Below, piece after piece: positions 3 to 11,678 of a stretch of 61,543 bases of DNA. The position numbers and the translations under genes were made by a program. The notes under the pieces are model-generated. The model was not told the DNA's origin, made no database searches, and worked only from the letters and a program-made list of their open reading frames with translations. The stretch comes from an uncultured Prevotella sp. (lineage in GTDB: Bacteria > Bacteroidota > Bacteroidia > Bacteroidales > Bacteroidaceae), in the NCBI GenBank assembly GCA_905233825.1, contig CAJOFE010000013.1:1-61543 (forward strand), written 5' to 3'. Numbering within the stretch: position 1 is the stretch's first letter; every line of letters starts with the position of its first letter.

Positions 3-3000
3 GAAACGATAGCTAAGGGTATGGAGGAGATGGCTGATGATGAGAAATATCAGTTCCTACAATACCTTCCTGATGATTTGGGTATTGAATTAGTATATAC
101 CAAATTTAAGTCAGAGCCTGTATATAAAAAATATATTGGTGAAAAATGGGATATATGTAAAGCAGAAGTACCTTATGTTGTATTCGACATAGAAACTGAC
201 GGCACTAATATTACAGAGTTTGCATATCTCAAAGAAGACAATCTCCGTAAGTTTGAGGGAGAAGAACAGCTAAACTCATTGGCTAGAACAATTAAGAATA
301 CACCTATTGTTGTTGGACACAACATAAAACAATGGGATTTGCCTAATCTTGCTCAAAAGGGCGTTTCTACAGACTCCTTCATTTGGGACACACTGGAAAT
401 CGAAATACTTCTCAACCCATGCCGTTATGCTTATTCACTTCGGACGAAACATAAATCAGAAGATGACACGCTACTGGAAAATAAACTTTTTTGGAACCAG
501 TTGTATCGTCTGTCCCTGCACCCAGATGTTTGTGATAAGCTAAAGGACTTTTTGCCTACGCAAATTATGAGTATTCTGTCTGAAATACAGAAACCATATT
601 TTGCTGAATACTTTAAGGAGACGGCTAATGAGAATATTAAATTTTTCCAGGAGCTTCGTCCTCTGTATGTCTCTCTCCAAAAGAAGCTTACAGATATTGG
701 GGAAATCCCTATTGATGAACCTACATTGATAGTTGCCCCTCAGGCTTTATGGCCACGCATAGCTCAGTATGTGCCGATGAAGTTTCCATGTAACTCACAA
801 AATAGTAGATTCAAAGTTATTAACAAGCAGAAACTTATAGAAACGCCGTTGGCTAATCCACTATGGAATGCTGTGTTAAAAAGATTTTGTGAGGTATCTA
901 CAACCCCAATAGTGGCCAATATCGCACAATATCTACGAGTCAATTCTGAAAACAAAGACAAAATAACATTCACAGATGAACTGCTTGAAAAGTATTTGTC
1001 AGATGCAGCGAGTCATATAGACTGCATAGACATCGACGCTTTTGAGGACAGTAGCTTATGGCAAAACAATTACAAGCACATCTACATCATAGGTTCAGAG
1101 CGTCAAGACAGAGTGCATAGATGCAAATATGATAAAGAATGGACTATTTCTGAACTTCTTGGACGAGGAAGCAGGCTACCATTGGCGATGGCTTCAACCA
1201 ACATTGCACTACTTACAAAAGAAGAGATTTCTGGATTAGGTCTGCAAAAATCAGACTTGACGGCCAATATATGGGCTGAACGTCAATGGTCAGGAACCAT
1301 TGCTATATATCAAAACTATCAATATCAAAAGTTTAGGAAGAAGTTTTTATCTCACTTCTCTGCTAAGCCAGAGGTGATAGAATGGATATTGAAAGGAGAA
1401 AAGGAGAATGAGCATGAATTAATTCAGGTCAGAACAAGCCAAAGTGAGGAATACAACCCGACACAAGTTCGAGTGAATTCATCTACAACATCGAGACACA
1501 AGTATTGGGTCTATCAAATGTCGTTATTGCAAAAAGTTCACTTGGAGAACCCTAATCTTCCTGTCGTCTATATTATCAACGATACGGAAGAGTATAATGA
1601 ACTATGCGCTTACGCACGACAGTGCGGGTATTTTATTCCAGACGAAGGTACAGGCTTCCGCAAATTGGAATATATAGGCGAGCACCCCAATGGCATGATA
1701 ATTATCAGTAAAGAGAGGTTTATCAATGACATTGGCTCATATCGTACCGACAGGCCATTCTGTTATGTGTGGGACAATATGGACATCGACCGTTATAAAA
1801 TCATGTGGGACACTTTACCGTTCGAAGGTGATTATGATGATAGTAAGGAAGATGAATCTGACGAGAAACACAAATTGACTTCGGCTCGCCAATGTATCAT
1901 AGCTGCATGGCCAATATTTGAACATTATCACTCAATGGTAATGGCAAATAGTGAGAAGACGAAGTTCTACATCTTTGACCCATACTTCGATGATTATACT
2001 GGACTAGAGAATATTTGCCAGTCACAAGTAAGGAATTATGTTCTGTGGGCTAATGAAGAGGAATATAAGGCTGCTCTATCAGAAGCAGAAGAATATTTCC
2101 AAAGTTTCAGAACTGTGAATGATATTCCTGACGCACATACTGCAATGGAATTTGTGCGTCCTCATTTTATTGGCAACAATAACTGGTACGATTATCAAAT
2201 TCCCTTACTGGAGCATATGATGGAACGGAAAAGTGATTGTGTTATTTCTTTGCCGACTGGCGGAGGAAAATCTGTCGTATTCCAAGCTCCAGCTATATAC
2301 AGGGCAATGTTCACCCATCGTTTGACTATTGTCATATCGCCTCTGCGTGCACTGATGCAGGATCAAGTGGAAGATTTGCATGCTAAAGGGTTTGTGACAA
2401 ATGTTGATTATCTGAGTGGGGACAGACTACCTGTTGAGACTCAATCCATATATCGTAGGATTAAGAGCGGTGATATTGCTCTTCTCTACATTACTCCGGA
2501 AAGATTCCGTGTTCGTTCGTTTATAGACGTACTCTATCAACGACTTCACATGGATGGAGGTTTGGAGTATGTGGTATTTGATGAAGCTCACTGTATATCA
2601 CAGTGGGGACAAGATTTCAGACCAGATTATCGCAATGCCATCATTACCTGTGTTGAACTTAAAAAGAAATTCGACATACGTATTGCTCTTTTATCAGCTA
2701 CTGTTACTGCACAAGTTGAAAGAGACTTACGGCAATTCATACCTGATTTGGTCAAGCTTGGAGATACTCCCAATCCAGTAAGAGAACATATATCAATATC
2801 CTTTGCGATTAACGGAAGTAGTAAGAAAAAACAGGGGCATGATGCTACTGCCAGAGTTAAGGCTATTGCAGAGTATATTCTTACCAACAAGATTAGTTTT
2901 GAAAAAAGTTGCATGTTAGTTTTCTGTCGGACTCACAATGACTGTGTAGATACGGCAGATGCGTTAAACGAATTATGTTCTGCAGAAGAACATCAAAACG

Positions 3001-6000
3001 ATGTGTTAGGAGAATGTGCTGATCACATAGATTTCTATCATGCGGGACTAGATGCCACTCAACGTAATGACAAGTATAAGCAATTTAAGAATGACCCAGA
3101 TGATCATATACCTGAAGACGAACGAATAAAAGTGCTTTGTACTACAAAAGCATTTGGAATGGGTATGGACATTCCTAATGTTCATTATGTGGTTCACTAT
3201 AACCCACCATCTGTTCTGGAAGATTATTTGCAGGAGGTTGGTCGTGCAGGGCGTGACCATAAGAAATATGAAGAAGCATTCCCAAATGGCGGAAAGATAC
3301 CCGCTCTTTGTATAACTTCTCCTGATGATTTCAGACATTTGAAAGACCTTCTTGTTAGAAGCCAGATGAGTTGGGCAGATTTGACCGACTGTAAGGATGC
3401 TATTGTTGACTTTATCCATCGCTTCAAAACCATTGATGAGGTGATGGTTAACCCAATTGTTATCCCATATAGTGTGTGGGTCAAAAATCAAGATAGAGAT
3501 AATTTTACCGACATTACTGCTTCAAGACTTGCTTTCCATTGGTTAGAGCATATTGGCTATCTAAAACTCAAATATCTTAGCCAAGCATATTTCTCAATTA
3601 CTGTACCAGAAGGGGCTGAACCCAAAAGAGCTGATGGAGAACAAAATAAGATGGTTTTGGACTATTTGAAGCGTAATGCAGAAAGAAATGATGAACCATC
3701 ACTCTTCTCTATAGTAGACATGAGAAAGTCTTTGCGATTGTCAATCGCAAAAATAATCAATGCAATGCTGTATTATCAGAAACAGCATACATTATCCCTT
3801 AATGAAACTATGCGCTGTGAAATTCTCACACGGCGCTATTGGGAAACAAAATATATGGTAGACCGAAATAAAAACGAATTTACCCTTCATATAATTTTTG
3901 ATGGTTTACACAATTTGTTAGGTTCATGCAAAAAAGGTGAAGAGCGTATCATTGATATGAAAGAACGAACCGAAATCTGCAACAGCCTACTGAACGATTT
4001 CTCATGTGACACTATAACAGAAGAGAAGAAACGGAGAAATGGACATATTGATAAAACTGTCTATATGCCTTGGAAGCCTATTTCTGATAAAGAGCCCAAA
4101 GGTGCTGTTTTAATAGCAGAAACTTTCAAAAAGGACATTAAGGGTAGGACTGGTAACAATATGTTTAGGATCTTACGATATGTGCCTGGTGTCGATTTTA
4201 AGATAAAACAAACCAATGAGGAGGTTACCTACAGAATAAAGGTAAAAGACAATTCCTGGAAGTCTTTCTTGACTAAACTTGAAAAAGACTGTTTTGAATG
4301 GATTAAATATGTTTGGAAAAATAACGACTATTTCAAATGGTCTGAGCAGATTATTGAATTTGATTTTAGATACGAAAACAATCCTATAGGGTATTTTGAA
4401 AAAATCCTTGCTGTTCTGAGGCTACTATCCTATATTGACCATACTCCGTTAATTAATTCTGGTATAGAGGTCAAGGCCAATGAGAATACCCCTACACCTA
4501 TTGACGAGGGAAAAGATCCCGATTCCCCGATGTCTAAATATAGACAAGAATTTGATGACCAAGAGAAGATTAAGGCAGTACGATTGACTTGTATGAACAT
4601 CTTCTCTCTTATCACAGAGTCAGACCGACAAAGTCAATTTATTCGTCGCTATTTTGAATGTGAAAAATATAAAGACTTTATAAAACTGGCTGAAGACTAT
4701 GCTCCAGCAGGGTCGTCTATCATGGAAGAATTAACAGACAAAGCGTTGGAGGAAGAGGAGAAGAAAATGGAGGGAAATGCAGAACAATTTGCCATCTATA
4801 ATCAACCTCGTTCTAATCACGTCAATGTTCTTGCAGGACCAGGTTCTGGCAAAACTCATGTTCTTACGCTTAGATGTGCAAAATTGATTTATAGGGAGCA
4901 CATTCTTCCTGAACATATTCTTGTCCTTGCTTACAACCGTGCTGTTGTAATAGAACTTCAGAATCGTATAGATAAGCTATTTACAAAGCTTGGCATGAGC
5001 CGTGTTGCCCATCGTCTGCATGTTTATACATTCCATGAGTTTGCCAGAAGAAGTATGGGTAAGTGTCTGGATGATATTCCTACCAAGTGTTGGGAATATG
5101 CTTTCTGGCAATATTTGAGTAATCCAAATAGTATCAGAGATTTTAGGGGCAAATATCCACAAATTGAGTTTATTCTTATTGATGAATTCCAAGATATTAC
5201 ACAAAATAGATTGGCAATTATCGATAGACTCCAAAACATATATCCTGCTGCAACGTATTTTACTATTGGCGATATCAATCAGAGCATATATGGTTTCGAC
5301 CGCCGTCCTAAGGATTGTAATAGGTGTGGATGTTGGAGAACAAATATTAGACTAACAAGAGAACCACAATGTCTTTATACTCCTGTTACGGCAGAACAAT
5401 ATGCCGACTCATTAAATCCGCAACCATATTATGACAGATTAAATGCCATGCTCCACCCAGAGCAGTTGGGGATGTTTACAAACTACCGCTCATATCAGAA
5501 AATACTAGATTGCTCTGCTAAATATGTACCAAAGGGTTATCAATTACCTGTATCTGCTGATTCGTTAATGAAGCATGAACCGCAAGTTGATTATACTTTT
5601 ATTTCGGATTGTAACGATGAGAACCTTGAAAAGTGGAAGGACGATCTCAATCTATACATATCAAAAGTGCAAGAGTCGAATAGCCGTATTCTTTCTGAAG
5701 AGGATAGCTACCAGCGCATCAGGGACATTGCGGTGTTTTTTAGAACAAACAATGAGGTTTATCGCGGCTACTCCCTTATTAAACCTTTTGTTCCTAAAGA
5801 CGTGAGAATACGAATCCAAGGAGCAAGTAATTGCGAACTTTGGCGTGAACGAGAAATCTTTTTCCTTATTCATACACTTTTGTCTCATCCTGACACAGAA
5901 ATAGAATTACGCAACGTAGAAAAGAATACCGTACAGGGGATTAAAAAATTCATTCAACAAAAAATGGATGATTCGCCTAATTGGGATCGATTCTATCTTG

Positions 6001-6749
6001 ACCTTGCCTATACTCTGGTTTTAAATTATATCGACTCAATAAGAAGTGATGATGTACAACATACGTGGTCGGAGCTAGCTGAATATATCAAAGATATTGC
6101 AGGAAACGATGACGGTGGACAAGTATATAAAATTTACGAGCACTATAAAAACGAGAGAATTATTCAAAAAGACCCGCTTACAATCATCCTGACTACGATG
6201 CACAAAGTTAAGGGCTTGGAATTTGATGCTGTATTCATTACGCCTTCCTCTGCAAATTTGCCTTTAAAGCCTCATAGAGTTTACAATCCTGGTGATCCTT
6301 TGGCTGAAGACGATTTAGCAGATATTGCAGAGGAGCGTCGTCTGTTATTTGTTGCTTATACTCGCGCAAAAAAATATCTCCATGTATACAAGGGAGATAG
6401 AGAAAGAGCTGTAGACGAGTGGAAGATATACATTCAACCAAATCAGGCGGCTATATATACAGAGAAAGACCCTTCTATGGATAAGTATTTTCTTTCATAT
6501 AATGCTATGGAAAGATGCTTCCAGTTCAATGATTATATAACTAAGAACGTCCGTAAAGATGATGAGATACAACTAATTGAATATCGGAATTATTATTATA
6601 TCTTGCACGGCACGCAGTATATCGGACGATTGTCAAATAATAGTGATATAGTTAGAAATGCAAGAAATAATCATATCCAAAGACTTCGTCGTTTTCATGT
6701 TAGTGACATCTGTGCACTTTTGGAACATTATGGTGTGAAAATGCCATAA
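3..6749 (+). CDS. Giant DEDD exonuclease - RecQ helicase - UvrD/PcrA helicase fusion (5' end probably outside the window)
   Basis: At least 2242 residues. Counting from the ATG at 21: a DEDD-type 3'-5' exonuclease domain (DIETDG at 56-61, VVGHNIKQWDL with D106, HKSEDD near 144-149); a RecQ-like SF2 helicase (TGGGKS near 746, DEAH near 854, then FGMGMDIPNVHYVVHYNPP and GRAGRD near 1050-1075); and a C-terminal SF1 helicase (AGPGSGKT near 1605, LIDEFQDI near 1717, MHKVKGLEFD near 2058, FVAYTRAK near 2110). All three nucleotide or metal sites look intact. The frame stays open from base 3 to the ATG without a stop, so the true start probably lies beyond the left edge. It is AT-rich, unlike the region right of 11.8 kb. 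Sixty-four bases separate it from a second helicase gene on the same strand, with no clear promoter between, so they are probably one operon. Function is inferred: DNA unwinding and degradation, perhaps anti-phage or plasmid defence. Confidence 0.85.
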   Translation, partial: ETIAKGMEEMADDEKYQFLQYLPDDLGIELVYTKFKSEPVYKKYIGEKWDICKAEVPYVVFDIETDGTNITEFAYLKEDNLRKFEGEEQLNSLARTIKNTPIVVGHNIKQWDLPNLAQKGVSTDSFIWDTLEIEILLNPCRYAYSLRTKHKSEDDTLLENKLFWNQLYRLSLHPDVCDKLKDFLPTQIMSILSEIQKPYFAEYFKETANENIKFFQELRPLYVSLQKKLTDIGEIPIDEPTLIVAPQALWPRIAQYVPMKFPCNSQNSRFKVINKQKLIETPLANPLWNAVLKRFCEVSTTPIVANIAQYLRVNSENKDKITFTDELLEKYLSDAASHIDCIDIDAFEDSSLWQNNYKHIYIIGSERQDRVHRCKYDKEWTISELLGRGSRLPLAMASTNIALLTKEEISGLGLQKSDLTANIWAERQWSGTIAIYQNYQYQKFRKKFLSHFSAKPEVIEWILKGEKENEHELIQVRTSQSEEYNPTQVRVNSSTTSRHKYWVYQMSLLQKVHLENPNLPVVYIINDTEEYNELCAYARQCGYFIPDEGTGFRKLEYIGEHPNGMIIISKERFINDIGSYRTDRPFCYVWDNMDIDRYKIMWDTLPFEGDYDDSKEDESDEKHKLTSARQCIIAAWPIFEHYHSMVMANSEKTKFYIFDPYFDDYTGLENICQSQVRNYVLWANEEEYKAALSEAEEYFQSFRTVNDIPDAHTAMEFVRPHFIGNNNWYDYQIPLLEHMMERKSDCVISLPTGGGKSVVFQAPAIYRAMFTHRLTIVISPLRALMQDQVEDLHAKGFVTNVDYLSGDRLPVETQSIYRRIKSGDIALLYITPERFRVRSFIDVLYQRLHMDGGLEYVVFDEAHCISQWGQDFRPDYRNAIITCVELKKKFDIRIALLSATVTAQVERDLRQFIPDLVKLGDTPNPVREHISISFAINGSSKKKQGHDATARVKAIAEYILTNKISFEKSCMLVFCRTHNDCVDTADALNELCSAEEHQNDVLGECADHIDFYHAGLDATQRNDKYKQFKNDPDDHIPEDERIKVLCTTKAFGMGMDIPNVHYVVHYNPPSVLEDYLQEVGRAGRDHKKYEEAFPNGGKIPALCITSPDDFRHLKDLLVRSQMSWADLTDCKDAIVDFIHRFKTIDEVMVNPIVIPYSVWVKNQDRDNFTDITASRLAFHWLEHIGYLKLKYLSQAYFSITVPEGAEPKRADGEQNKMVLDYLKRNAERNDEPSLFSIVDMRKSLRLSIAKIINAMLYYQKQHTLSLNETMRCEILTRRYWETKYMVDRNKNEFTLHIIFDGLHNLLGSCKKGEERIIDMKERTEICNSLLNDFSCDTITEEKKRRNGHIDKTVYMPWKPISDKEPKGAVLIAETFKKDIKGRTGNNMFRILRYVPGVDFKIKQTNEEVTYRIKVKDNSWKSFLTKLEKDCFEWIKYVWKNNDYFKWSEQIIEFDFRYENNPIGYFEKILAVLRLLSYIDHTPLINSGIEVKANENTPTPIDEGKDPDSPMSKYRQEFDDQEKIKAVRLTCMNIFSLITESDRQSQFIRRYFECEKYKDFIKLAEDYAPAGSSIMEELTDKALEEEEKKMEGNAEQFAIYNQPRSNHVNVLAGPGSGKTHVLTLRCAKLIYREHILPEHILVLAYNRAVVIELQNRIDKLFTKLGMSRVAHRLHVYTFHEFARRSMGKCLDDIPTKCWEYAFWQYLSNPNSIRDFRGKYPQIEFILIDEFQDITQNRLAIIDRLQNIYPAATYFTIGDINQSIYGFDRRPKDCNRCGCWRTNIRLTREPQCLYTPVTAEQYADSLNPQPYYDRLNAMLHPEQLGMFTNYRSYQKILDCSAKYVPKGYQLPVSADSLMKHEPQVDYTFISDCNDENLEKWKDDLNLYISKVQESNSRILSEEDSYQRIRDIAVFFRTNNEVYRGYSLIKPFVPKDVRIRIQGASNCELWREREIFFLIHTLLSHPDTEIELRNVEKNTVQGIKKFIQQKMDDSPNWDRFYLDLAYTLVLNYIDSIRSDDVQHTWSELAEYIKDIAGNDDGGQVYKIYEHYKNERIIQKDPLTIILTTMHKVKGLEFDAVFITPSSANLPLKPHRVYNPGDPLAEDDLADIAEERRLLFVAYTRAKKYLHVYKGDRERAVDEWKIYIQPNQAAIYTEKDPSMDKYFLSYNAMERCFQFNDYITKNVRKDDEIQLIEYRNYYYILHGTQYIGRLSNNSDIVRNARNNHIQRLRRFHVSDICALLEHYGVKMP

Positions 6750-6813
6750 GGAAAGGTTTTGTTTATCTAGTTCAAATTGCTGGCTTTGGAGAACCATATT
6801 AAAATATACAATT

Positions 6814-8745
6814 ATGGAATCTATTAAAGAATCATTAAAACATGACTACAATCTTGCAGTAGACTGTTTCAACAACAAAGACTATATCTCATTCTTTCGC
6901 AATGTTCGCCCAGCGATAGAATGGATATGTAAGCTGTTTATTAGAGATGTTGTTGGAAAAAAGATAGACTATGATGATATTATGGAGGGGCGTAAAACTA
7001 TATACAAAACGTATGATAGTTTTAAAATTGTTTCATCAGACACAAAGAAAGCTCCAACGGGAAGTGCATTGGCTATTCTTGTGCCAAAAGCATATTATAT
7101 GAAACATCCAGATGTTTTTACATCAAAGATGGATAATACGATGAAGAGAATCCGAACAGGGGTTGATAGCAATAGTAAATCGTTCGAGTATTGGTATAGC
7201 GTGGCTAGTGAAATTGGTAATCACTCGGGGGCGTCCTCAATGGATATTGAAATTCAGGCGAGAAATTGTGCAACAACATTTCCTGGCTTTATTGATTTCC
7301 TTGACGCAAACCATATTCTTTCAGATGAAACGATTTCATTCTTAAAGCAGCTGCAGAATTTTTCTTTTAACTCTGTTCGTGAGAAAGAACTGTCTCAAGC
7401 AAAAAAACAGATCCAGGAACAAGATGAGAAACTGAAGGCTAATAGCCAAATAATACAAGATCAAAGTAATACGATTAAAGAACAAGACTCAACTTTGCTT
7501 GTAATGCAAAAGCAACTGGCTGAAATCGAAAAGTCACATCTTGAATCTTTAGAAAGAAATAACGATATTGAAAAGCAACTTGAAGAAAAAATATCTGAAA
7601 TTGAGCGTTTAAAAGTTCAATTGGAAGAACGAGGAATTAATGATGAACAGGAAGAAACAGAACAAGAATCTTCTGCTTCTTCAAATAGGACTAGTAACAC
7701 GAATAGACTAACAGAAAGGCTTACTATCTCTGAATGGGACGTGGATGAGAGTTCTATGGATGATGACCAATTGGATTTGATAGAACGTACTTTAGACAAG
7801 TCAATGTTGGTTGCAGGATGCGCAGGTAGCGGAAAATCTGTAATTGCCATGCATAAGGCAGAGCAGATAGCGCAAGCTGGATATAGTGTTATTCTAATTG
7901 CATACACAAAATCCCTCAACGGATTTATGCAATTAGGAAGTAACATTGCTACTCATTATCAGTTCTTCTACCATTATCAGTGGAAAAACATTCATAAAAT
8001 GCCTTCTGCTGATTACATCATAGTTGATGAAATACAAGATTTTGAACGGGATGAAATTTACGAATTTATCAATGCAGCAAAGAAGCACTATCTTTTCTTT
8101 GGTGATACGGCACAGTCTATCTATAGGCATTTCGGAAAGAAGACTCTAAGCATTGAGCAAATATCCGAGATGACTGGCCTCACAACTCTTCACCTCTATA
8201 ATAACTATAGGCTTCCAAGACCAGTTGCAAAAATTACGCAAGGATATGTTGGCGTTGATGTAATGCCTTATGCAGATAAAGTATATCGTAATAAGGAAAA
8301 GACATTACCTCATTTCGTTCATTTCCCTGATTTTAATGCACAGATGAATGCAATTGCTGATATAATTAGGAAAAACCCGGATTCAACAATAGGGATTTTA
8401 CTTCATAGCAATTCTCTTGTCGAGCAAACATGCAGACAATTATATACTGCAAAAATCAATTTTGAGTACAAATTCCAAATAGAAAGTTCAGCGGAAAGAA
8501 AAGTCTATGGAAACCTGGACTTCCGTACGGACTTACCAAAAGTGATGACCTATCATAGTGCAAAAGGATTACAGTTTGATATTGTAATATTGCCTGTATA
8601 TGAAGGAGCCAGTTCTGATGATTCTAGGAAATCGTTATATGTCGCAATGACTCGTACCATTCATACACTTTATGTATTGTACTCAACTCCGTTGCTATTG
8701 CCCCCATTAAACAACGTTCCCTCTCATCTCTATTTAAAAGAGTGA
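6814..8745 (+). CDS. HEPN/DUF4145-like N-terminal domain fused to SF1 (UvrD-like) helicase
   Basis: 643 residues. Residues 1-180 are helical, and the sequence SEIGNHSGA resembles the GNxxxH signature of DUF4145 (a HEPN relative); I do not see a canonical HEPN R-x4-6-H motif. Residues about 190-280 are a highly charged coiled coil rich in Q, E and K. From 300 on is a compact SF1 helicase core: Walker A GCAGSGKS near 335, Walker B VDEIQDF near 404, GDTAQSIY, MTYHSAKGLQFD near 577 and YVAMTRT near 609. It resembles DUF2075/UvrD_C_2 proteins. It follows the giant helicase in the same AT-rich block and is probably co-transcribed with it. Inferred role: partner helicase or sensor in the same DNA-processing or defence module. 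The helicase call is firm; the N-terminal domain call is tentative. Confidence 0.8.
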   Translation: MESIKESLKHDYNLAVDCFNNKDYISFFRNVRPAIEWICKLFIRDVVGKKIDYDDIMEGRKTIYKTYDSFKIVSSDTKKAPTGSALAILVPKAYYMKHPDVFTSKMDNTMKRIRTGVDSNSKSFEYWYSVASEIGNHSGASSMDIEIQARNCATTFPGFIDFLDANHILSDETISFLKQLQNFSFNSVREKELSQAKKQIQEQDEKLKANSQIIQDQSNTIKEQDSTLLVMQKQLAEIEKSHLESLERNNDIEKQLEEKISEIERLKVQLEERGINDEQEETEQESSASSNRTSNTNRLTERLTISEWDVDESSMDDDQLDLIERTLDKSMLVAGCAGSGKSVIAMHKAEQIAQAGYSVILIAYTKSLNGFMQLGSNIATHYQFFYHYQWKNIHKMPSADYIIVDEIQDFERDEIYEFINAAKKHYLFFGDTAQSIYRHFGKKTLSIEQISEMTGLTTLHLYNNYRLPRPVAKITQGYVGVDVMPYADKVYRNKEKTLPHFVHFPDFNAQMNAIADIIRKNPDSTIGILLHSNSLVEQTCRQLYTAKINFEYKFQIESSAERKVYGNLDFRTDLPKVMTYHSAKGLQFDIVILPVYEGASSDDSRKSLYVAMTRTIHTLYVLYSTPLLLPPLNNVPSHLYLKE

Positions 8746-8959: not shown

Positions 8960-10552
8960 ATGGCACTGGCAATAAACATAGAAGATCTGCTGAATAAGCA
9001 GAAAATAGAGTCCAACAGGATTGAGTTCAAGAAAGGTTGGAATCCAGCAAGCATATACCATAGCATATGTGCTTTCGCTAATGATTTCGACGATCTTGGA
9101 GGTGGATATATATTGGTTGGCGTGGATAGCGATGATGATACAGGAATGGCTATCCGTCCCGTTGAAGGCGTACCAATCGAGAAGATTGACGGCATTCTTC
9201 AGGATATGGTGAGCTATAACAACAAGATGTCACCGTATTATTTGCCCAGAACAAGCGTTGAAGAGGTGGACGGAAAGCAGGTGTTGGTGATATGGTGTCC
9301 TGCAGGCATCAACAGGCCATATTCTGTACCTGAGAATGTGACCGCAAAGAATGGTAGTAAGGAATACTTCTATATCCGGAGCGGTACGAGTAGCATCATT
9401 GCCAAAGGGGAGGTGCTGGACGAACTACGTGAATTGGCAAGTCGTGTACCGTTTGATGAAAGGGGGAATCCTGACATTAAAGTAGAGGATATATCTACGT
9501 TGTTGCTTCGTGAGTATCTGGTTAAAGTAGGCAGTAAGCTGGCTAATGAGTTATACGAAAGGCCACTGAGCGAGATTCTGGAGCAGATGGACTTGTATGT
9601 TGGTCCATCAGAAAACCGTATGCTGAGGAATGTTGCTGCAATGATGTTTTGCGAGAATCCAAGTAAGTTTTTCAAGCGGACACAGGTAGAAGTGGTTTTC
9701 TTCCCTGAAGGACGACTGGTAAATCCCAACAATCTCTATGAGGCTCCTGTCATCACAGGTTCCGTGACACAGATCATTGAGCGGACGTTGGAGTATCTGA
9801 ATCGCATGGTGGTGATGCAATCCATCATTAAACCCAAGAATGACAACCACAGTATCAAGTTCTATACCTATCCTTACCAAGCATTGGAGGAAAGTATTAC
9901 GAACTCGTTATATCATCGCGACTATCGGGAATGGGAGCCAGTGGTGATTACTGTCGAGCCGAAGGGTATTACCATTCAGAACGTTGGTGGGCCAGACCGC
10001 AGCATCCCAGTTGCTGACATCAATCGTGGAGAATTGCTTATCTCCAAACGTTATCGCAACCGTCGTTTGGGTGAATATCTGAAGGAATTGGAGTTGACCG
10101 AAGGACGAAGCACAGGTATTCCTACCATCCAGAATGTATTGAAGGCAAATGGCTCGCCTCGCGCTGTCGTCGTTACGGATGAAGAGCGCACCTTCTTCCG
10201 CATCACTATTCCCTGTCATGAAGCAGCGGGCAATGTTATTGCTGACATAGCGACAAGAGAGAAGATAAAGGATAGTTCACAGGAAATGGTCAAGAACATC
10301 CCTGATGTCCTGAAGGATGTCCTAAAAGATGTCCAGAAAGATGTCCTAAAAGAACTATCTGAAAGACAGATAGTTATACTTGAATTGATATGCACATCAC
10401 CAGAGGCAACTCTAATAGAAATGTCCAGAAAGCTTAAGGTGTCCGACAAGACTATTCAACGAGAGTTTACAGCTATTAGGAAACTTGGTATCAATATTGA
10501 GCGCCAAAATGGACGCAAGGAAGGTAAATGGGTTATCAAAATTGGGAAATAG
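8960..10552 (+). CDS. AlbA_2 (Schlafen-like) domain ATP-binding protein with C-terminal winged helix
   Basis: 530 residues. The N-terminus is an AlbA_2 domain (NRIEFKKGWNP, then GGGYILVGVDSDDDTG), as found in bacterial Schlafen-related proteins and many 'ATP-binding' putative regulators. The middle has a GHKL/HATPase_c_4-like part (EESITNSLYHRDY near 314, then a segment ending GRSTGIPTIQNVL). The end is a helix-turn-helix (LIEMSRKLKVSDKTIQREF). Between the ATPase and HTH lies DVLK repeated four times (residues 449-464), encoded by 12-base units. Such proteins are common in Bacteroidota accessory regions and their biochemistry is mostly unproven; transcription regulator or nucleic-acid toxin are both possible. 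It is followed after 3 bases by the next gene, so the two are translationally linked. Confidence 0.75.
   Translation: MALAINIEDLLNKQKIESNRIEFKKGWNPASIYHSICAFANDFDDLGGGYILVGVDSDDDTGMAIRPVEGVPIEKIDGILQDMVSYNNKMSPYYLPRTSVEEVDGKQVLVIWCPAGINRPYSVPENVTAKNGSKEYFYIRSGTSSIIAKGEVLDELRELASRVPFDERGNPDIKVEDISTLLLREYLVKVGSKLANELYERPLSEILEQMDLYVGPSENRMLRNVAAMMFCENPSKFFKRTQVEVVFFPEGRLVNPNNLYEAPVITGSVTQIIERTLEYLNRMVVMQSIIKPKNDNHSIKFYTYPYQALEESITNSLYHRDYREWEPVVITVEPKGITIQNVGGPDRSIPVADINRGELLISKRYRNRRLGEYLKELELTEGRSTGIPTIQNVLKANGSPRAVVVTDEERTFFRITIPCHEAAGNVIADIATREKIKDSSQEMVKNIPDVLKDVLKDVQKDVLKELSERQIVILELICTSPEATLIEMSRKLKVSDKTIQREFTAIRKLGINIERQNGRKEGKWVIKIGK
10304..10351 (+). repeat. Four in-frame 12-base tandem repeats (GATGTCCTRAAR)
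   Basis: Units start at 10304, 10316, 10328 and 10340; the third has CAG in place of the CTG/CTA codon. Each unit encodes DVLK or DVQK, so copy-number change by slippage would lengthen the linker before the HTH without breaking the frame. Confidence 0.85.
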
Positions 10553-10555
10553 GAA

Positions 10556-11539
10556 ATGGAGTTTAGTGAGGAACAGCTTAAAAAACTGTCAGTTCTATTT
10601 GAGGAAAAAGTTGAAAAAGAGCTAACAATCGAAGAGGTTCGAAAGTTTGTTCAGTTGGATACAATTGACGATTGCAAACAGTATTTACGGGTGATGCTTG
10701 ATTTCTTCTTCGAAGTCTTCAAATCACCAGAAGGGCGCAAAGCCATGTCATCTCTCGAAAATGAAAGAAACATTTGGCTTCAAACAATCTTTAGTAAGAG
10801 TTGCCATTTCCTATATTTGTTAGATGGTGTGGGGTATAATAATGGTTCCAACCATCTCAATCCTATTATAGACCCATCTGTATTGTTTACTATTGCAAGA
10901 AGGATATATGAGTCAGTAATTGCTTTTGAGCTATTATTTGTCATCCCAAGCACAGAAGACGAACAAACAATTCTTTATAATCTTTTCATGGCTCAAGGAC
11001 TAACAGAGAGATTAAATGATCTTGACGAAGAAATGCGTAGCCACAATCCCCAAAGAGTTGCAGAAGAACAGCAGAACATTGATAACTGCATGAATGAGAT
11101 AGAAAAAACGGAACTCTATTCGAACCTCAGTCAACAGACAAAGAATCAAATAAAAAATGCTTTTGGTATAAGATACCGATATGTGTTTGAGGAAGACAAC
11201 ACTATGAAACGAGTCAGTTTCGAAGATGCATATAAATATCTTCGAATCAAAAAGGATCTTCTCAAAAACACTTATTCATTCTTCAGTCTTCATGGACATC
11301 CATCATATCTGGCACTTATTCAATTTCATGATGCTTTCAAAAGAGAAAGTCGGGCAGATTTAACAATTATGGCTCCACATGCGACTCAATGTGTCCTGGC
11401 ATTTATGAGCATTTTCATAGTAGATTATATGAAACTGGTTCCTGAGATTAAAGCCATGTATGATAAACTTGAAGAGCCAAGACGATTTGCAATTGGCATG
11501 TACGAGGATGCAATGAGAGGTGAGAAGAAGTTTCAATAA
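10556..11539 (+). CDS. Unknown helical protein coupled to the AlbA_2 gene
   Basis: 327 residues, not recognised with confidence. It is predicted mostly helical and soluble, with no signal peptide or membrane span. The pattern IARRIYESVIAFELLF near residue 120 and LHGHPSYLALIQFHDAF near 250 faintly recalls DUF5677-type (HEPN-like) proteins, but I would not assign it. The start codon lies 3 bases after the stop of the AlbA_2 gene, and base composition matches the rest of the island. Inference: cargo of the same element, acting with the AlbA_2 protein. It is the last gene before the tRNA-His junction. Confidence 0.6.
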   Translation: MEFSEEQLKKLSVLFEEKVEKELTIEEVRKFVQLDTIDDCKQYLRVMLDFFFEVFKSPEGRKAMSSLENERNIWLQTIFSKSCHFLYLLDGVGYNNGSNHLNPIIDPSVLFTIARRIYESVIAFELLFVIPSTEDEQTILYNLFMAQGLTERLNDLDEEMRSHNPQRVAEEQQNIDNCMNEIEKTELYSNLSQQTKNQIKNAFGIRYRYVFEEDNTMKRVSFEDAYKYLRIKKDLLKNTYSFFSLHGHPSYLALIQFHDAFKRESRADLTIMAPHATQCVLAFMSIFIVDYMKLVPEIKAMYDKLEEPRRFAIGMYEDAMRGEKKFQ

Positions 11540-11634: not shown

Positions 11635-11678
11635 TTTGATGGAACAACTTAAAAATGTTCCATCAATGTTCCATCAAA
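11635..11678. repeat. Three copies of TGTTCCATCAA at the island/tRNA junction
   Basis: Two direct copies abut (11656-11666 and 11667-11677). A third lies inverted at 11636-11646, so 11635-11646 and 11667-11678 form a perfect 12-base inverted pair. The set sits between the last island gene and the tRNA-His 3' end, where integrase arm-type sites would be expected, but it could also be a terminator hairpin. Confidence 0.75.

Follow-up and report, generated by a model that had tools for sequence, protein, structure and literature searches.

What is the function of a gene that joins an exonuclease and several helicases in one polypeptide, and does it act with its neighbours against invading DNA? 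The stretch of DNA analysed here (the window; 61,543 nucleotides) corresponds to positions 1-61543 of C13, a contig in a Prevotella draft genome (G000), and begins at base 1 of that contig, within such a giant helicase-nuclease gene (MEGA), which is followed by a second helicase gene (HEL2). An earlier note on this DNA had read the two genes as a new DNA-targeting module. Judged from the sequences of these genes and their relatives, MEGA, HEL2 and a third gene encoding S1 domains are likely to form a DNA-targeting conflict operon that is TOTE-like in parts.

The giant helicase-nuclease

The features of MEGA in the window are as follows.

3..6749, + strand: MEGA, giant helicase-nuclease gene, an ORF of 2,248 codons with its 5' end missing at the contig start
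168..557, + strand: DEDDh exonuclease domain of MEGA (residues 478-607)
654..2054, + strand: DinG/XPD-like SF2 helicase body of MEGA, without Walker A and predicted inactive (residues 640-1106)
2193..3257, + strand: RecQ-type SF2 helicase core of MEGA, from profile matches
4776..6389, + strand: UvrD-type SF1 helicase core of MEGA, from a profile match (E 3.8e-26)

Because the window starts at base 1 of C13, the MEGA frame has no start codon and the gene is truncated at its 5' end. A complete MEGA of 2,703 amino acids is encoded on a Prevotellaceae MAG contig (locus L007); residue 1 of the window frame corresponds to residue 423 of that protein, whose numbering is used throughout. About 420 N-terminal residues and one upstream gene, both seen in L007, thus fall outside the window. 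A search of G000 with the first 422 residues gave no match, so the 5' part of the gene is either absent from the assembly or undetected. In L007 the domain order is a cold-shock fold (CSD), a helical region, the DEDDh exonuclease, the DinG-like helicase body, RecQ and UvrD. Residues 148-477 are predicted to be all-helical, with no TPR family among the profile matches, and residues 477-1106 align with Staphylococcus aureus DinG over 425-454 residues.

Among 492 matches to MEGA, 120 near-full-length proteins were listed, and 39 of these 120 were aligned with the L007 piece (40 rows; the near-identical P0003 was excluded). The five residues of the exonuclease site, D484, E486, D534, H572 and D577, are invariant in all 40 rows and the site is intact. 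Together with the profile matches, which for the two halves of the RecQ-type DEAD helicase reach E 2.4e-29 and 1e-16, and with the length of the open frame, this bears out the earlier claim that an exonuclease, a RecQ and a UvrD helicase share one polypeptide. In the window, however, the gene is truncated, and a third helicase body, between exonuclease and RecQ, had been missed: MEGA holds three helicase-type modules, one of which lacks its ATP-binding motif, as a Walker A (GK[ST]) sought in residues 607-1120 was absent from 39 of the 40 rows, the remaining row having a GKS tripeptide.

The last approximately 40 residues of MEGA are conserved in the family and lie in a different frame in the window copy. 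This frame change, in a tail whose motif is kept in 119 of the 120 listed relatives, and the cut at the contig end would fit a decaying or misassembled copy with no present function in G000. We regard that explanation as very improbable, since 2,248 codons are open, the MEGA region is 99.67% identical in DNA to that of L007 across 6,715 bases, and the nuclease and helicase motifs sought are present.

The second helicase

HEL2 and its parts occupy the following positions.

6814..8745, + strand: HEL2, SF1 helicase of 643 aa, from its ORF and profile matches
6814..7353, + strand: N-terminal head of HEL2, predicted to be helical; HEPN-like but lacking the canonical Rx4-6H pair
7375..7629, + strand: predicted long helices of HEL2 (coiled-coil type), linking head to helicase
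7744..8742, + strand: UvrD-like SF1 helicase core of HEL2

The second gene had been described as an SF1 helicase behind a DUF4145/HEPN-like domain and a coiled coil. The helicase, the predicted helical head and the coiled coil stand, but the domain label is weak: the best Pfam match of the head is Cas_Csm6_HEPN, at E 0.039 and below its cut-off, and profile comparison with DUF4145 gave a probability of 2%, using only three DUF4145 sequences (six loci were fetched, and three without the motif by the search pattern were left out). The fold-comparison rows listed for HEL2 are of helicase type and thus hardly probe the head. His137 of the head is invariant in 39 aligned rows, made up of 38 of the 120 listed HEL2 proteins and the window's own, with the near-identical P0123 excluded. 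The arginine expected at -5 to -7 of the motif histidine for a canonical HEPN RNase site was found in 0 of the 119 listed relatives having the motif; canonical HEPN catalysis is thus not predicted for the HEL2 head. The HEL2 frame of G1199 lacks about the first 100 residues, and in one genome, G379, a NERD nuclease replaces the head. One helicase type therefore carries a HEPN-like head in the listed relatives and a NERD nuclease in one genome.

A unit of three genes with a patchy distribution

In L007, a gene for a 275-aa protein with three S1 stretches lies upstream of MEGA with an 8-base overlap, and is itself preceded by a 72-aa Cro/C1-type HTH gene. The S1 gene stands before MEGA in L007, G285, G1393, G1199 and G1239, and S1 domains are fused into the giant frame in G379 and P0041. 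The S1 gene belongs to the unit, and the pair of MEGA and HEL2, proposed earlier as the whole module, is not the whole of it.

The adjacency of the pair does extend beyond this strain. Nine genomes in all were found to hold the giant gene, and HEL2 lies immediately 3' of MEGA in six of them (G000, G285, G379, G1393, G1199 and G1239), as judged from the loci read; this amounts to six out of six where identity is at least 35% and the 3' side is assembled. The MEGA of G285 is divided between two contigs, which meet at residues 1849/1850, the G036 assembly stops within the gene, and the more distant copies of G629 and G755 (28-30% identity) have no HEL2 next to them. L007 and a further locus, L060, were located via HEL2 and stand outside the six.

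The exonuclease part of MEGA matches four of 398 genomes of the genus, three of 393 of the order and one of 395 of the phylum, the window's own genome being included each time and being the single match in the last sample. The whole protein matches 55 of 399 family genomes at E<=1e-40, 51 of them with the ordinary RecQ part only; the other four are G000, G285, G379 and, with the exonuclease part, G036. The surroundings of MEGA also vary among the loci read. Both observations speak against a core-genome gene, and neither of the outcomes that the note named as refuting its view (single homologues in core contexts, or a pair confined to this strain) was seen. Distant relatives occur on plasmids, split into two genes in Hymenobacter, and in Rhodobacter into a small gene and two others that encode a CSD-exonuclease and a RecQ-UvrD protein; no near-identical copies were found in plasmids. 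Viral contigs searched with the MEGA protein alone and with its alignment yielded no relative, and a search with HEL2 yielded one locus, L060. Among phage records, the best 20 of 25 matches to MEGA all fall in the RecQ part, and HEL2 led to a single gut scaffold (L072), which is unverified and differs in its gene set.

Two genes follow HEL2 in the window.

8960..10552, + strand: Schlafen-type gene with SLFN_AlbA_2, HATPase_c_4 and HTH matches (the HTH under its cut-off), an optional neighbour
10556..11539, + strand: gene whose match to DUF5677, at 26.1 bits, stays below the cut-off of 27.1

A Schlafen-type gene lies 3' of HEL2 in four of the eight loci read (the window, L007, L049 and L060) and was not seen after HEL2 in L048, L057, L058 and L059; by BLASTP at E<=1e-3, the window protein matched neither that of L049 nor that of L060. 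The DUF5677-like gene is missing from L007 and is thus not a core part. Further neighbours of a conflict type are an AEP-TOTE primase-helicase (E 8e-99) at L049, the G379 cluster, an OLD/GajA-like ATPase in the L060 cluster, and SNF2, AAA and methyltransferase genes beside the Hymenobacter plasmid relative; none were identified at the remaining loci read. The MEGA of G285 has an ArdC-type antirestriction gene and a sub-threshold SSB match beside it. A 664-aa gene near a MEGA remnant in L060 was considered as a Mu-type transposase and dropped, having no Pfam match.

An apparently mobile island at tRNA-His

MEGA and HEL2 lie inside a low-GC block, of 36-41% GC up to 12 kb of the window against 50-59% beyond, which ends at tRNA-His in both G000 and L007; the AT-rich, tRNA-adjacent setting noticed earlier is thereby confirmed. 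Two features mark its right end.

11650..11677, + strand: 28-bp repeat close to the island's right end, with the same words beside the left-end integrase in L071 and in G000 contig C8
11741..11815, - strand: tRNA-His, part of whose 3' end is duplicated at the opposite island edge

The far edge is seen in L071, the contig of L007, which there carries a 17-bp exact copy from the 3' part of tRNA-His, a 28-bp repeat equal to window positions 11650-11677 and a gene that resembles an integrase (E 5.5e-14 to Phage_int_SAM_5; its PF00589 match, at E 0.017, misses the cut-off). In G000, a copy of the tRNA end, the same 28-bp repeat and an integrase that is 86% identical lie within the final 4.2 kb of contig C8. 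Hence both marks of a tRNA-integrated element were found, namely an integrase and, at the far edge, a copied tRNA 3' end, and we infer that C8 and C13 bound one element. A 597-aa island gene was considered as a relaxase and dropped, as it had neither Pfam nor NCBIfam support.

The cargo DNA of the island is 98% identical between G000 and L007. Of seven core genes compared between L007 and the window, five are 67-76% identical and two have no match in the latter; for the left part of the element, identity between the same two genomes is 68-75%. Separate histories of cargo and backbone therefore seem likely. Taken with the marks at its edges, these comparisons make the island look mobile; the cargo appears to have been transferred recently and independently of its carrier.

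These findings bear on two other explanations. The set could be an accessory DNA-repair or replication-stress machine, DinG/WRN-like, that clears R-loops or stalled forks and was spread by chance on a mobile element. DinG, RecQ and UvrD relatives are repair enzymes; however, the distribution is patchy even within the genus, near-identical cargo occurs in unlike genomes, some of the neighbours are conflict genes, and G000 already holds two RecQ-like genes besides MEGA. We consider a repair role unlikely. Alternatively, the genes could be the element's own competition or maintenance module, which would exclude rival elements or plasmids or process element DNA in transfer rather than act against phages. 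The integrase, tRNA-end copy and repeats that frame the genes, the ArdC-type gene and SSB match beside the G285 copy and the plasmid location of distant relatives speak for such a module, whereas the apparent separate histories of cargo and left part speak against it, as does the fact that no relaxase was identified in the element. On balance, we judge it to be unlikely as well.

Proposed model

A role in defence or inter-element conflict is the best reading, given that the set is rare, that it appears to travel with an integrative element and that some of its neighbours are of a conflict type. Within it, we lean towards the proposal, with a little more confidence than doubt, that the co-oriented S1, MEGA and HEL2 genes, as cargo of an apparent tRNA-His integrative element, protect the host or the element against invading DNA, which they would unwind and degrade. 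In this scheme, the OB-folds of S1 and CSD would sense RNA or exposed single strands of an invader, such as R-loops or nascent transcripts. Duplex opening would fall to RecQ and UvrD, and 3'-5' digestion of the released strand to the DinG-type exonuclease, while the dead helicase body would act as a clamp. HEL2 would contribute a motor together with an effector head, either HEPN-like or NERD, and a backup effector might be provided by the Schlafen-type neighbour. PMC12525004 describes a Bacillus DinG with a DEDD exonuclease that degrades ssDNA 3'-5' as well as the RNA strand of RNA-DNA hybrids; taken with the S1 and CSD folds, this activity on hybrids suggests that R-loops or transcripts of the invader may be the cue. 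It is possible, although doubtful, that the set represents a new class of mobile immune machine, in which S1 and CSD folds detect RNA or R-loops of foreign origin and bring a one-chain engine (two live helicases, a dead clamp and a 3'-5' exonuclease) onto the invader DNA, aided by a partner motor with a swappable killing head (HEPN-like or NERD).

If the set is defensive, MEGA would do in one chain, with RNA-binding folds at its N-terminal side, what other nuclease-helicase systems do with several subunits. It would then become testable whether a helicase-nuclease selects invaders by their transcripts or R-loops and not by DNA marks, and catalogues of conflict genes would gain a family for which none of the listed PADLOC matches is full-length.

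Comparison with known systems

On MEGA, PADLOC and NCBIfam profiles cover single helicase parts (among the best 25 of 64 and the best 25 of 31 matches, respectively). No description of the domain fusion was found by title or abstract in the open-licence PMC literature. In the animal protein WRN, a single chain likewise has an exonuclease ahead of a RecQ helicase; compared with WRN by description, MEGA has a DEDDh exonuclease, a dead helicase body in between, a UvrD motor and CSD/S1 parts. The ExoDinG proteins, i.e. DEDD exonuclease-DinG proteins such as those of S. aureus and B. subtilis (PMC11981726), share with MEGA a DEDDh exonuclease, after which a putative SF2 helicase fold comes in MEGA too; there, however, this body lacks Walker A and is part of a 2,700-aa chain that also holds the CSD, the helical region, RecQ and UvrD. 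The portion of that review consulted names no such fusion, and the word 'RecQ' is absent from its main text.

Gabija GajB, Nhi and NERD-UvrD helicases (PADLOC) share the SF1 helicase core, and a NERD head is present in G379, but their profiles are confined to the helicase part; PADLOC lists no GajA partner for window genes 2-4, whose lists are complete. The RecQ core resembles PsyrT (E 6.6e-54) and DpdF (best E 9.6e-62) in PADLOC, but the matches are limited to the first half of each profile, and a DprA-like or other Dpd partner is not listed for any of the four window genes.

TOTE conflict systems are named for TPR, OB, TBP and Effector components (PMC12458937). The CSD of MEGA supplies an OB-fold component, and the likeness extends to the combination of this fold and a helical region with helicase and nuclease parts, and to the AEP-TOTE gene at G379. 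No TBP-like component was found among the proteins scanned (some small ORFs lay outside the scan), no TOTE profile is among the matches of the window's four scanned genes, P0001 or P0002, and the AEP-TOTE effector profile matched in the G379 cluster only. While not assigned to TOTE, the set is best filed as a nuclease-helicase conflict system that is TOTE-like in its OB-fold part and in the company that it keeps at one locus.

Variation in the giant protein and HEL2

In the copy of the giant protein carried by the Prevotella contig, the reading frame changes at window positions 6690-6802, across some 40 conserved C-terminal residues, and this change may reflect either decay or an assembly error. 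Of the 120 relatives listed, 119 carry the tail motif of the giant protein, [VI]x[IV](A/S)G; the A/S position is A in 114 of them and S in 5. At the opposite end, several relatives (L049, L050, L051, P0032 and P0034) carry a short extra N-terminal domain, which in the L051 protein gives a weak match to IF2_N (E 0.013).

On the Hymenobacter plasmid pHsw1 (L038 10507-18664), the giant protein is encoded by two overlapping genes, the break separating one half of the RecQ core from the other. HEL2, the SF1 helicase gene directly downstream, also varies: in genome G1199 (L058 14378-16336) its frame lacks about 100 N-terminal residues and is possibly a broken copy. In a viral-collection contig (L060 9617-9997), the giant protein is reduced to about its C-terminal 100 residues, and this remnant is followed by HEL2, then by a gene of the Schlafen type and one for an OLD-like ATPase. 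The genes to the left of the remnant appear phage-like by eye, and the locus is possibly a phage inserted into the system.

Further genes in these and other genomes

In the G379 cluster, a single gene encodes a fusion of an AEP-TOTE primase and an SF2 helicase (L049 3-2483), and shares the cluster with the Schlafen-type and NERD-helicase genes. Elsewhere in the window's own genome, a DUF4145 domain (G000:C16:4802-5032, L066; E 4.3e-5) opens a long frame that, by eye, resembles a restriction-type SF2 helicase. The E. coli plasmid pLAO18 (L042 4858-11002) carries a DprA gene followed by a RecQ-family gene of 1,558 aa, a gene order reminiscent of PsyrTA.
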